From Microvirga mediterraneensis (GTDB lineage Bacteria; Pseudomonadota; Alphaproteobacteria; Rhizobiales; Beijerinckiaceae), in NCBI RefSeq assembly GCF_013520865.1, contig NZ_JACDXJ010000001.1:3829501-3893500 (forward strand): a DNA stretch of 64,000 nt, in the 5' to 3' direction. This document shows positions 55,107 through 64,000 of the stretch, one piece after another (position 1 is the first letter of the stretch; each line of letters starts with the position of its first letter). A model generated the notes under the pieces. That model worked only from the letters and a program-made list of their open reading frames with translations, was not told the DNA's origin and searched no databases. The position numbers and the translations under genes were made by a program.

Positions 55107-57110
55107 TCAGAGGGGCCTCAGGCTCGCGAACAACGGCGCGAACCCCGATCCTGAACGGTAGAACACGGGCGGCTGTCCGAAGGGTGCCGGAACCGTCGCC
55201 TCACGCCCGCCGGCGAATGCCTCGCCCGACCAGACATGAACCCATTCTGCGCCTTCTGGAAGATAGACGCTCCATTCCGTCTTCCCCGCCTGCCAGACCG
55301 GCGCGACGAGGAGGTCAGGGCCGTAGAGATAGGCATCCTGGATTGCGTAGGTGCGGGAATCGTTCTCGAAATGAAGGAACAGCGGGCGCTGCACCGGCAG
55401 GCCTCGCGTCGATGCTTCAGCCACGAGGGATTTCAGGTAAGGCACGAGATGCACATAAATCTGCGTCATCCGGGCGAAATGTTCGAGCACCTGCGGGTCC
55501 TGGTCGATCTGAAGGTTGTCGCGCGGGCGGTTACCTTCATGGGTGCGCATGACCGGCGTGAACGCTCCCATCTCGGCCCAGCGCATGATGAGCTCGGCCG
55601 TGCGCACATTGCCGAACAGGCTCGTATAGCCGCCGATATCGGAGTGGTGATAGGCATTGCCGAGAAGCCCCGATGAAAGCGCGCCCGACATCACAGTCAC
55701 GAGCCCGTCGTGGCGGGTGAAGTCGACAGACTGGTCTCCGCCCCACAGCAGGGGACAATGCTTCTGAATGCCCGTGAAGCCGGCGCGCATGAAGAACAGA
55801 GCTTCGCCGGTCTTGCCCCGGCTCGCTACCGCGCGCGCATTCACTTCGGCCCAGAGCGTCGGCCACGCATTGTGCATCAGCTTCGCGTCGATGCCGTTGG
55901 CGAGCTTCACGTCGATCGGCAGGTACTCGCCGAAGTCGGCCATCCATCCGGAAAGGCCGAAATCGAGCATGTTCTGACCGATCACCCGCTCGGCGAACCA
56001 GGCGGATGCGTCCGGATTGGTGAAATCCACGACGCCGCAATCGAACTCGCCGAAATCCACGAGCGCCGTCTTGCCGACCTCGTCTTTGGCGAAATAACCT
56101 GCAGCCTCCGCTTCCGGGAACAGCGAGCCGTCGACCGCGAGATAAGGATTCACGTAGCCGAGGAAACGAATACCGCGCTCCTCCAGCTCCGCAATGCGTC
56201 GGCGCAGGCCCGGATATCGGTCGTCGTTGGCCTTCCAATCCCAGAACAGACGAGCGCCGAACGAGGTATGGCGCAGGCCCACCCAATCCTCGCACCAGAG
56301 GCCCGACACCTTCGTGCCAGCGGCAAGGATGGCGTCCAGGCGCTCGAACGACCGGGCTCCGTCCTTCAGGCCGATGATCGCACCGCCATAGACCCATTCC
56401 GGCAACGGCGGCTGACGGCCGAAGCGGTCCGACATGGCCTCGACGAGAGAGATGAAGGTAGGACGCGCCGTGAACTCGATCCGCTCCGGCACGGCCCAGG
56501 TCTCGATTTCGTGGAAATTGCCACGGCGGAAGTCGAAGGCCGAATAGGCCGTCGTCTCCACGTGCAGCGCATAGCGCCGGGACGAGAGATAGGTCGGCTG
56601 CGGATAATTGGTGTTCCAGTAGTCGCCGCCCGACTTCCCGGTGACATCCGCCTTGAAGGTGATTTCCGTCGTCTTGTCACGGCCTACACCGGGCTCCGAC
56701 GTCCAGAGAGGAAATTGGCGTCCGCGCATGTCGAGATAGGACATCTGCTCGCCGCCACCCCATACATGCTCGTCCTCTTCCGCATAGATGCGAATCCAGA
56801 TCCGGTTGAGCGATGCATCCTCGGTCCGGAACGCGATGGTGCCTGTCCGCTCATCTCCCGAAACTTGAAGGATCACCCGGGCCGGCTGCCCCGGCGCCGC
56901 TGAAAAAGCGATGTCGGATCCGGATATGACTACGTGCGCGAGCGGGGTGCGCTCAATGACATAGTCCTCGATGTCGAAATTGCCGCGATACATGTCCATC
57001 CGGGCATCGCCTTTCCCCACGAAGAGACATGGCGCATCGCCACGCTGGCGCAGGATCAGTCTTCCATCGAGAACGAGATCGAAGCCGTCAGCGGTCGTTT
57101 GGATCTGCAT
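55107..57110 (-). CDS. Sulfoquinovosidase (GH31, YihQ-like)
   Basis: A 667-residue retaining glycosidase that releases sulfoquinovose from sulfolipid head-group glycosides. Nucleophile Asp392 in GWMADFGEYLP, acid/base Asp459 in WGGDQSVDF: a spacing of 67, exactly that of Asp405/Asp472 in E. coli YihQ. Tyr495 in DIGGYTS lies 36 after the acid/base, as Tyr508 does in YihQ. Arg287 and Trp290 in GARLFWDW keep the Arg301-x-x-Trp304 sulfonate-binding spacing. No signal peptide, so it acts in the cytoplasm. Terminal gene of a tight minus-strand operon, 9 bp after the SDR gene. Confidence 0.9.
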   Translation of the reverse strand: MQIQTTADGFDLVLDGRLILRQRGDAPCLFVGKGDARMDMYRGNFDIEDYVIERTPLAHVVISGSDIAFSAAPGQPARVILQVSGDERTGTIAFRTEDASLNRIWIRIYAEEDEHVWGGGEQMSYLDMRGRQFPLWTSEPGVGRDKTTEITFKADVTGKSGGDYWNTNYPQPTYLSSRRYALHVETTAYSAFDFRRGNFHEIETWAVPERIEFTARPTFISLVEAMSDRFGRQPPLPEWVYGGAIIGLKDGARSFERLDAILAAGTKVSGLWCEDWVGLRHTSFGARLFWDWKANDDRYPGLRRRIAELEERGIRFLGYVNPYLAVDGSLFPEAEAAGYFAKDEVGKTALVDFGEFDCGVVDFTNPDASAWFAERVIGQNMLDFGLSGWMADFGEYLPIDVKLANGIDAKLMHNAWPTLWAEVNARAVASRGKTGEALFFMRAGFTGIQKHCPLLWGGDQSVDFTRHDGLVTVMSGALSSGLLGNAYHHSDIGGYTSLFGNVRTAELIMRWAEMGAFTPVMRTHEGNRPRDNLQIDQDPQVLEHFARMTQIYVHLVPYLKSLVAEASTRGLPVQRPLFLHFENDSRTYAIQDAYLYGPDLLVAPVWQAGKTEWSVYLPEGAEWVHVWSGEAFAGGREATVPAPFGQPPVFYRSGSGFAPLFASLRPL

Positions 57111-57119
57111 GGAAAACTC

Positions 57120-57884
57120 TCAATTCTGGGTCAGGCCGGCATCGACGATGAAGTTCGCCCCCGTGCAGCCGCCGCTCTCGTCGGAGCCGAGGAACAGCGC
57201 CATCCTCGCAACGTGGCTGGCGTCGAGCCGGAACTTCAATGCCTGAAGATCGAGGAACTGCTGGTTCAATTCGGGCGTGAGCCAGAGCTGTTTCTGGCGT
57301 TCGGTGAGAATAGCGCCCGGCACGATGCAGTTGACCCGGATATCGGACACTCCCAGCTCGCGGGCGAGCGTGCGGGTCATGCCGTTGATCGCCGCTTTCG
57401 CAGTCGTGTATCCGACCATGCCAGGACGACCGCGTATCCACGAGATGGACCCAAGCATGATAATGGAGCCGCCCCCGCGCGTCGCCATACCTTTCGCGAC
57501 AGCCTGCGTTGCGAAGAACTGATGATCAAGATTCAGCGCGAGGGCTCGCCGCCAGTAATCGGGCTCAACCTCGGCCATGTCGTGCCGGTCGTCCTTGCCG
57601 GCATTGTTGACGAGCACATCCACACCGCCCTGATCGCTTTCGATCCTGGCCAGCACCTGCCGGAGCGCCGGAATGTCGGTGATGTCGCAGGCGTGGAAGG
57701 CGGCACCCGTTGCGCTCGCCAGCGCGCGCCCCGGCTCCTGCGCGATGTCGATGAACGATACCCGCGCCCCCTGCGCGACGAAAGCCTTCACCATCTCCTC
57801 GCCGATTCCGGATGCACCGCCCGTGATGACGACGGAGCGGTTCTTGAGAGAGCGATACTGAACGGTTGTGTAGTCGAATGCCAT
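57120..57884 (-). CDS. SDR oxidoreductase, likely sulfoquinovose 1-dehydrogenase
   Basis: A 254-residue short-chain dehydrogenase: NAD(P)-binding [20 protein letters not shown], catalytic Ser in MLGSISWI and Tyr/Lys in [10 protein letters not shown], and a C-terminal [10 protein letters not shown]. In the sulfo-Entner-Doudoroff route the first enzyme, oxidising sulfoquinovose at C1 to the lactone, is an SDR. The assignment rests on the surrounding operon; other sugar dehydrogenases look the same. Confidence 0.8.
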
Positions 57885-63786: not shown

Positions 63787-63808
63787 CGAAAGTGTCTCCT
63801 CAGCAGTA

Positions 63809-64000
63809 TCAGCGAATGCGGATCGCGTGTCCGTCCACGTCGAAAAGGTGAAGCGCCTCGCGCTTGAGGCGAAGCCCAACCCTCTGCCCTCGGTCGTATC
63901 CGGCCTGGCCATCCTGGCGCACGGTCATCTGCGGCAGGCCTGGAGCCGACCCATACAGGTAGGTTTCGCCTCCGAGCTGCTCCACCAGGTCGACCGTGAT
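63809..64000 (-). CDS. Sugar ABC transporter ATPase (UgpC/MsmK type), C-terminal end
   Basis: Only the last 63 residues are in the window; the gene continues beyond the right edge. Seen: VEQLGGETYLYGSAPGLPQM, then GYDRGQRVGLRLKREALHLF and a DVDGHAIRIR end, the TOBE-like regulatory tail of sugar ABC ATPases. It places a sugar importer upstream in the same operon, as in known sulfoquinovose loci of rhizobia. Confidence 0.85.
   Translation of the reverse strand: MTVDLVEQLGGETYLYGSAPGLPQMTVRQDGQAGYDRGQRVGLRLKREALHLFDVDGHAIRIR

Follow-up and report, generated by a model that had tools for sequence, protein, structure and literature searches.

Among the routes known for the breakdown of sulfoquinovose (SQ) is the sulfo-Entner-Doudoroff (sulfo-ED) pathway. 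As a stand-in for the sulfo-ED operon of Rhizobium leguminosarum SRDI565 we used a plasmid cluster of Rhizobium sp. WSM4643, in which genes for dehydratase, aldolase, lactonase, SQ dehydrogenase and sulfoquinovosidase (SQase) stand in that order and are followed by a TauE-type exporter gene; Pseudomonas putida SQ1 served as a second reference, through its SQ dehydrogenase. Two further systems resemble other parts of the locus. A plasmid module of Roseomonas mucosa carries lacI, a binding protein (SBP), two permeases, UgpC and a GH31 protein (here GH31b), and glucuronide operons of Ruegeria TM1040, Paracoccus seriniphilus and Nitratireductor combine GH2, a TRAP importer, GH31, a mannitol-dehydrogenase-family protein, UxaC and UxuA. 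Finally, the tandem sulfofucolytic-sulfolactate sulfolyase pathway of Paracoccus wurundjeri has the SDR, SMP-30 and HpcH families and an ABC importer in common with the locus, but its substrate is sulfofucose, its dehydratase belongs to a different family (PF13378/PF02746 rather than PF00920), and the excerpt of the paper used here mentions no SQase (PMC12421959).

The predicted sulfo-ED enzyme genes and their likely substrate

We analyzed a window of 64,000 nt from Microvirga mediterraneensis (GCF_013520865.1, NZ_JACDXJ010000001.1, 3,829,501-3,893,500, forward strand), whose numbering is used for all positions. Five sulfo-ED enzyme genes, all on the minus strand, span 55107-61339 in the order of the Rhizobium cluster, and each encodes at least one Pfam family above cut-off, which bears out the run of SDR, SMP-30, IlvD/Edd, HpcH/HpaI and YihQ-like GH31 proposed in a first-pass annotation. 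The gaps between them measure 9, 12, 2 and 9 bp, the 2-bp gap becoming 11 bp with the lactonase start of the M. ossetica counterpart, so the 9-11 bp given earlier is about right. That annotation had passed over two features of the same strand, the GH31b gene between the ATPase and dehydratase genes and a TauE fragment downstream of the first GH31 gene.

The SDR (57120-57884) is 59% identical to the P. putida SQ1 enzyme, has PDB 9gwu as its best structural match and keeps 10 of 11 tested residues, namely the SQ contacts D99, R101, R152, R154 and Q198, the tetrad N119, S147, Y160 and K164, and D45 (P. putida numbering; contacts and tetrad as given in the excerpted part of PMC12133307). Both sulfonate-site arginines are thereby retained, and the one change, of the second-shell C-terminal Gln260 to Asn, counts against the sulfo-ED reading. 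The YihQ-type GH31 (55107-57110), the predicted SQase, scores 1165 bits against PDB 5ohy, which we take to be the Agrobacterium enzyme, and 962 bits against NCBIfam PRK10426 (cut-off 553). It keeps five SQase residues, K249, E274, R287, W290 and Y495, matching K245, E270, R283, W286 and Y491 of the Agrobacterium enzyme, presumably the residues for sulfonate and substrate. The candidate sulfogluconolactone lactonase (57897-58787; PF08450, 285 bits) and KDSG aldolase (58790-59596; PF03328, 147 bits) are assigned from family and gene order, and the candidate sulfogluconate dehydratase (59606-61339; PF00920/PF24877) from its domains and 86% identity to the WSM4643 counterpart, the SQ dehydrogenases of the two clusters being 74% identical. 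All three families, here in one operon, are named in the available portion of PMC12421959. With residue-level support for two enzymes, and family and gene order for all five, the earlier proposal that a complete sulfo-ED core is encoded here is well supported at the sequence level, the activities themselves being predicted.

A substrate other than SQ, be it a plain sugar or another one substituted at position 6 (sulfofucose, L-arabinose, D-xylose or L-rhamnose), seems very improbable. Sulfofucose was considered because the dehydratase scores above cut-off as NCBIfam "L-arabinonate dehydratase", and the best NCBIfam scores of the SDR (D-xylose dehydrogenase) and the aldolase (GarL/HpaI models), all below cut-off, lean the same way. 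The dehydratases of the identically ordered Rhizobium and Shinella clusters are likewise annotated as L-arabinonate dehydratase. Against these scores stand the conserved arginines and other tested SQ contacts of the SDR, the SQase in the same gene run and the different dehydratase family reported for the sulfofucose pathway, and on these three grounds we rejected sulfofucose. A separate search of genome contigs with two generic SDR peptides kept 80 of 568, mostly distant SDRs. Its best two loci, at 52% and 47%, were both rejected as orthologs of the cluster, the first (L013) being a distant run (SDR 51%, lactonase 38%, dehydratase 38%) and the second (L014) having an SDR and a lactonase (42%).

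Sulfolactaldehyde dehydrogenase and TauE in two types of operon

Related Microvirga operons come with either a Rhizobium-type importer (type A) or a LacI-SBP-permeases-UgpC-GH31b front (type B, as here). The sulfolactaldehyde dehydrogenase (GabD/SlaB) that the first-pass annotation expected past the right edge did not turn up: neither the window nor the 38 kb beyond it gave a match, and two GabD homologs (79-80% identity) lie elsewhere in the genome. Since only 4 of 14 type-A loci show a full GabD gene within the stretch examined, we do not take its presence in the cluster as defining sulfo-ED. The TauE/SafE-type exporter gene is full-length in M. ossetica, where this genome has a remnant (54691-55077, minus strand) that aligns to residues 10-143 of 256 with four internal stops; a TauE encoded elsewhere in this genome shows 83% identity with the protein from that M. 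ossetica cluster. TauE is near full length in all 13 assessable type-A loci, whereas among the nine type-B loci this one has a broken copy and four others gave no match. This loss may mean that type B is altering or losing its sulfo-ED pathway; one type-B locus (L153) is without the lactonase too. As to sulfolactate lyase, the SuyB-like protein of locus L206 has a single match in this genome, at 33% (L216).

These losses would fit sulfo-ED genes left as a stranded relic behind a glucuronoside operon, in which SQ can no longer enter after an importer swap and the loss of TauE and sulfolactaldehyde dehydrogenase. We consider this improbable, because the aligned core genes have no in-frame stop, four of them show a dN/dS of 0.04-0.11 in comparisons with six other type-B loci (two at dS ∼1 or more), and the TauE and GabD homologs mentioned above could act from elsewhere. 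The selection analysis and trees were run without L158, which meets a contig end, and without the lactonase, which is missing in L153.

GH31b, its importer and the proposed glucuronate link

The GH31b gene (61408-63786, minus strand) lies in an 834-codon frame open to 63912 and encodes 792 aa if it begins at the M. ossetica start. Its Pfam domains are those of GH31 and DUF5110, with none of GH67 or GH115. The protein keeps the acids of the WNDNNE and WSGDN motifs, which we take to be the catalytic acids of GH31. At four SQase positions aligned by eye, Glu is replaced by Gly, Trp by Phe and Tyr by Phe, with Arg kept, and a role as second sulfoquinovosidase was rejected on those three replacements. 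All 21 GH31b rows have Gly or Ser at a position that is Asp in each of the four PDB domains aligned, and the GH31 proteins of the glucuronide operons (44-47% identity to GH31b) share its altered motif, with His-Ser-Trp near the active site instead of Asn-Ser-Trp. From this change and from genomic context we infer that GH31b is an α-glucuronidase, although its best NCBIfam scores, below cut-off, are to α-glucosidase/α-xylosidase-like models. Literature searches gave no report of an α-glucuronidase in GH31, and the likely activity appears to be undescribed so far.

The ABC ATPase ahead of the operon was confirmed as a UgpC-type gene (63809-64885, minus strand) that the window edge cuts, its C-terminal end occupying 63809-64000. 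Extending the sequence brought out the permeases and binding protein foreseen earlier, in the order UgpC-permease-permease-SBP, followed by the candidate operator GGCAAACGTTTGCC and a divergent LacI. The ATPase is not that of the Rhizobium sulfo-ED cluster, to which it is 50% identical, compared with 69% to the Roseomonas module. SBP, permeases and UgpC are 72, 73, 82 and 69% identical to their Roseomonas counterparts (62-82% across the module, in the same order), whereas the Rhizobium permeases and UgpC reach 31, 29 and 50% and the Rhizobium SBP gave no match here at 1e-5. Compared with Rhizobium, the locus has an only distantly related importer and LacI, an added GH31b gene, a broken TauE and no GabD in the cluster. 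Among solved structures the SBP matches none but distant sugar-binding proteins, the best at 59 bits, and these do not indicate its ligand.

An ordinary sulfo-ED operon, whose SQ or SQ-glycerol importer comes from another lineage and whose GH31b is an accessory α-glucosidase or α-xylosidase with no glucuronate link, would account for the stop-free SQase, SQ dehydrogenase and remaining core genes under purifying selection and for the NCBIfam scores of GH31b. It would also suit the three settings (Microvirga, G385 and G381) in which this importer adjoins sulfo-ED genes. A second pairing with sulfo-ED genes, in another family, favors the explanation preferred below. Moreover, Roseomonas and four order-level loci (L177, L178, L181 and L182) have the same module with no sulfo-ED genes nearby, and the importer of G381 follows GH88 and KduI genes at a distance of 2.5 kb, both points against the ordinary operon. 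Many GH31b relatives adjoin uxaC, uxuA, uxuB, uronate dehydrogenase or β-glucuronidase genes, with TRAP, MFS or ABC importers alongside; the glucuronide operons, for their part, have TRAP where this locus has ABC and no sulfo-ED genes nearby. uxaC and uxuA flank the GH31b module in M. ossetica; some other relatives have them within the cluster or next to it, and those of this genome are elsewhere. Glucuronate genes adjoin GH31b relatives in 8 of 14 hand-picked and 5 of 20 order-level loci; the 12-19.5 kb examined around the other 15 order-level loci contained none of uxuA, uxaC and uxuB, which counts against the link. Together with the Asp replacement, this context makes the ordinary operon unlikely. 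GH31b and SQ dehydrogenase co-occur (4/8 versus 34/389 genomes; Fisher, p 0.004), a result we give little weight because the cut-offs were our own and kinship was ignored.

The 14-bp palindrome GGCAAACGTTTGCC is conserved ahead of the type-B module and is the probable LacI operator. It recurs in the Roseomonas module. A GH2 operon of Chelatococcus shares it too, which further disfavors an ordinary operon, and Azospirillum has a one-mismatch copy ahead of uxuA. Even with one mismatch allowed, it is lacking in 14 of the 20 order-level GH31b loci and in 10 of 14 plasmid loci, and this counts against the explanation we prefer below. A search around uxaC/uxuA and the intact TauE gene elsewhere in this genome (L168, L221 and L222) gave no site with one mismatch or fewer; one with two mismatches, at L221:10533, lies some 210 bp ahead of that TauE gene. 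No perfect 14-bp palindrome is common to the 15 Rhizobium-type fronts compared (13 type-A Microvirga, L167 and L125).

Probable front-end replacement and what it would mean

Within Microvirga 14 of 22 operons are type A and 8, this one included, are type B; the type-B operons do not form one clade (tree, p-AU 7e-5). Upstream of the dehydratase, 4 of 9 type-B loci retain the 3′ end of a Rhizobium-type second permease. This genome has no such scar, a point against the explanation preferred below, and replacement in its own line is presumed. The importer and switch look borrowed from a glucuronic-acid system.

We therefore favor, as the probable explanation, a sulfo-ED operon whose original importer and regulator were replaced by a LacI-ABC-GH31b module from glucuronoside catabolism. 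Acidic α-glycosides would enter through the ABC importer, which we infer serves both kinds, although a separate SQ importer may exist elsewhere in the genome, where the best match to the Rhizobium SBP is 33%, and this counts against sharing. SQ would be freed by the YihQ-type GH31 and converted by SDR, lactonase, dehydratase and aldolase to pyruvate and sulfolactaldehyde, which a GabD-type enzyme encoded elsewhere would oxidize to sulfolactate for export through a carrier likewise encoded elsewhere. Glucuronate released from α-glucuronosides by GH31b would reach central metabolism through UxaC and UxuA, with the whole operon under one LacI at one operator.

A bolder combination is tentative and, on balance, doubtful: GH31b would found a so far undescribed α-glucuronidase branch of GH31, the type-B operon would take the head groups of both acidic glycolipids formed in plants by the enzyme SQD2, and the front-end exchange would have been made, or undone, more than once within one genus. 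SQDG would supply sulfoquinovosyl-glycerol and GlcADG glucuronosyl-glycerol; both would then pass through one importer under one LacI, and the released glycerol would go to glpK/glpD, genes that come after the operon in M. ossetica.

SQ is put at 10 billion tons made a year (PMC10755693), and glucuronosyl-diacylglycerol is described as a lipid that builds up in plants under phosphate shortage (PMC9460063, in the part available). If true, the proposed arrangement would tie the breakdown of sulfosugars to that of uronic acids by a common importer and switch, provide a testable case of repeated front-end exchange of an operon within one genus, point to an α-glucuronidase specificity in GH31, and offer a candidate breakdown route for glucuronosyl-diacylglycerol.

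Core enzymes and a possibly dispersed last step

The minus-strand run at 55107-61339 reads, in transcription order, IlvD/Edd dehydratase, HpcH/HpaI aldolase, SMP-30 lactonase, SDR dehydrogenase and YihQ-type GH31 (55107-57110), with successive gaps from dehydratase to GH31 of 9, 2-11, 12 and 9 bp. The first-pass annotation had called this a complete sulfo-Entner-Doudoroff (sulfo-ED) core, and we uphold that reading: the same five genes stand in Rhizobium order, and the site residues of the sulfoquinovose (SQ) dehydrogenase (SQDH) and the sulfoquinovosidase (SQase) are largely kept. 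A plasmid of Rhizobium sp. WSM4643 carries the identical five genes in identical order, followed by the exporter gene TauE and an aldehyde dehydrogenase. The window lies in a 4.7 Mb contig of a genome totalling 5.35 Mb, and the nearest SDRs in the plasmid collection, from two Microvirga records, are 90-92% identical, hence the label Microvirga-like. To the left of the operon, and apparently unrelated to it, is a HerA-like helicase gene (52124-53740; PF05872, 753 bits).

The SDR is identical to the SQDH of Pseudomonas putida SQ1, its top PDB match, at 150 of 253 aligned residues. It keeps 10 of the 11 residues assigned to SQ, NAD or catalysis in PMC12133307, the exception being the C-terminal, second-shell Gln260, which is replaced by Asn. 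Of 27 loci, the window locus counted, 26 keep all nine of the catalytic or SQ-contacting positions; the exception is one Shinella SQDH (Arg154 to Asn). The YihQ-type GH31 scores 1165 bits to PDB 5ohy and retains K, E, R, W and Y at five positions that we take to be the sulfoquinovosidase signature. The lactonase, aldolase and dehydratase are candidate assignments based on family, gene order and neighbors.

Past the right edge lie UgpC, two permeases, a solute-binding protein (SBP) and, divergently oriented, LacI, with methylmalonyl-CoA mutase genes beyond, so that the permeases and binding protein anticipated there are present. The sulfolactaldehyde (SLA) dehydrogenase expected alongside them did not appear, the GabD of the Rhizobium cluster finding no match at 1e-5 in the window or the following 38 kb. 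Far from the operon, the same genome holds two nearly identical GabD genes (L136 and L137; C1:1771988-1773448 and 971948-973393), whose products are 80% and 79% identical to the Rhizobium-cluster GabD, and either could be a candidate SLA dehydrogenase. By eye, both carry the Arg pair and Trp-Asn-Phe proposed for SLA binding in PMC10599462, and an apparent aminotransferase gene adjoins one of them. Directly downstream of the YihQ-type gene lies a TauE remnant that covers residues 10-143 of 256 and contains four stops; a stop-free TauE elsewhere in the genome is 83% identical to that of the M. ossetica cluster.

Two operon fronts and their probable exchange

The operon core is sound, but of a known kind; the novelty is the exchanged front end, a common palindrome and a candidate GH31 alpha-glucuronidase. 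This second GH31 gene (GH31b), absent from the first-pass annotation, occupies the frame 61408-63912 upstream of the dehydratase, with its first codon at 63786 if the annotated M. ossetica start is applied.

In a genus set of 37 genomes (the window genome and 36 others), SQDH was present at >=82% identity in 22, and the loci of the 21 other positive genomes were retrieved. Fourteen of the 22 operons have a Rhizobium-type front (LacI, UgpC, SBP, permease, permease; type A), and eight, the window operon among them, have lacI, SBP, permease, permease, UgpC and GH31b (type B); a ninth type-B locus, that of M. ossetica, came from the plasmid collection. The Rhizobium sulfo-ED importer is only 29-50% identical to that of type B, with no SBP match at 1e-5, whereas a Roseomonas mucosa plasmid module lacking sulfo-ED genes has an importer 69-82% identical to it. 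Four core genes, compared between the window genome and six other type-B loci, gave dN/dS of 0.04-0.11. In one type-B locus (L153, genome G017) the lactonase had no match, the remaining four core genes being present and stop-free.

Type B fails to form a single clade in the phylogeny built from four concatenated core proteins (26 rows), the best tree keeping it together being 271 log units worse (p-AU 7e-5); four type changes are needed, at least three of them forced by the starred branches. Four of the nine type-B loci (L123, the M. ossetica locus, and L148, L149 and L162) retain a 3' remnant of the second permease of the Rhizobium type, roughly its final 26-36 codons, directly upstream of the dehydratase, where the type-A permease gene ends. 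This tail is direct evidence that, at least in these four, the GH31b module displaced an older importer. No such scar was found in the 68-bp gap upstream of the dehydratase in the window genome. Alignments to TauE span 97-100% of the protein in all 13 type-A loci that could be assessed (L158 is cut short) and 99-100% of it in four of the nine loci of type B; in four others no TauE was found within the retrieved sequence, which reaches about 3 kb beyond the SQase.

Related pairings occur elsewhere. Genome G385, from another family, has SBP-permease-permease-UgpC-GH31b (45% identity), then lactonase, SQDH and SQase, with dehydratase and aldolase on a different contig. In G381 an importer of the type-B kind follows GH88 and KduI genes at a distance of 2.5 kb and ends beside an opposite-strand sulfo-ED run; GH31b was not found at that locus. 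Two loci from genomes of the same family (L206:2850-9795 in G078 and L208:4870-11816 in G183) show an apparent joined sulfo-ED and sulfolactate-lyase cluster, reading SuyB-like, 2-hydroxyacid dehydrogenase, Ldh_2, SG dehydratase (72%), SQDH (67-69%) and GFO/IDH, the Pfam scan covering L206; in both genomes GH31b is on another contig.

A palindrome shared by type-B and some related modules

Every one of the nine type-B loci has a perfect 14-bp palindrome, GGCAAACGTTTGCC, between lacI and SBP, as do Roseomonas and four order-level loci with the same module. Exact copies occur in 17 of 223 loci retrieved, against about 0.01 matches expected by chance in 3.1 Mb at uniform composition; with one mismatch allowed, 2/200 shuffles of locus L003 gave one match. 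Two copies precede a Chelatococcus GH2 gene (L133), and a copy with one mismatch lies some 130 bp before uxuA in Azospirillum sp. B510 (L199). Even with one mismatch allowed, the palindrome is absent from all 14 type-A Microvirga loci and from G385 and G381. This distribution suggests a putative operator of the module's LacI, although its presence, within one mismatch, in only 6/20 order-level GH31b loci and 4/14 plasmid loci counts against that reading. The type-B sulfo-ED genes would probably be read from the promoter at this site.

Glucuronate context and proposed physiology

In M. ossetica the module is flanked by uxaC (glucuronate isomerase) and uxuA (mannonate dehydratase). Four of the nine type-B loci have a uxuA alignment covering 98-100%, a fifth has a fragment of this gene, and a uxaC tail persists beside lacI in the window genome and L149. 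The window genome holds uxaC and uxuA (91% and 50% identical to their M. ossetica counterparts) together at another place. Fourteen plasmid loci carrying GH31b relatives were hand-picked for variety among 40 listed of 122 records, and eight of these have uxaC, uxuA, uxuB or uronate dehydrogenase nearby; a Burkholderia oxidoreductase there matches solved uronate dehydrogenases, and the GH2 of a Paracoccus operon has a beta-glucuronidase as its best match. Of 20 order-level loci, retrieved from 37 other order-level genomes with a GH31b match, five have uxuA, uxaC or uxuB and 15 none of the three. Since GH31b relatives stand beside different importers (ABC, TRAP, MFS), inheritance as one common block becomes less likely.

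GH31b and 20 relatives carry Gly or Ser where 4/4 aligned PDB domains carry Asp, a residue that presumably holds O4/O6 of the sugar; judged from the alignment, the change fits, without proving, a sugar bearing an acid at C6. The nearby motif is Asn-Ser-Trp in ABC-type members versus His-Ser-Trp in TRAP-type members, so their substrates may differ.

According to PMC9460063, SQD2 makes both SQDG and GlcADG, so plant debris may offer both sulfoquinovosyl-glycerol and glucuronosyl-glycerol. We found no report fitting their joint use among open-licence papers, judged by titles and abstract openings and by passages of PMC4491172 and PMC11036162. In M. ossetica, glpK and glpD follow TauE (L123:25336-28401), an arrangement that would fit glycerol release from glycosyl-glycerols, and glpK also lies within the stretches of L149, L157 and L162. 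An SQase, a probable alpha-glucuronidase and one acid-sugar importer, with glpK and glpD in M. ossetica, would together allow both glycosyl-glycerols to be used.
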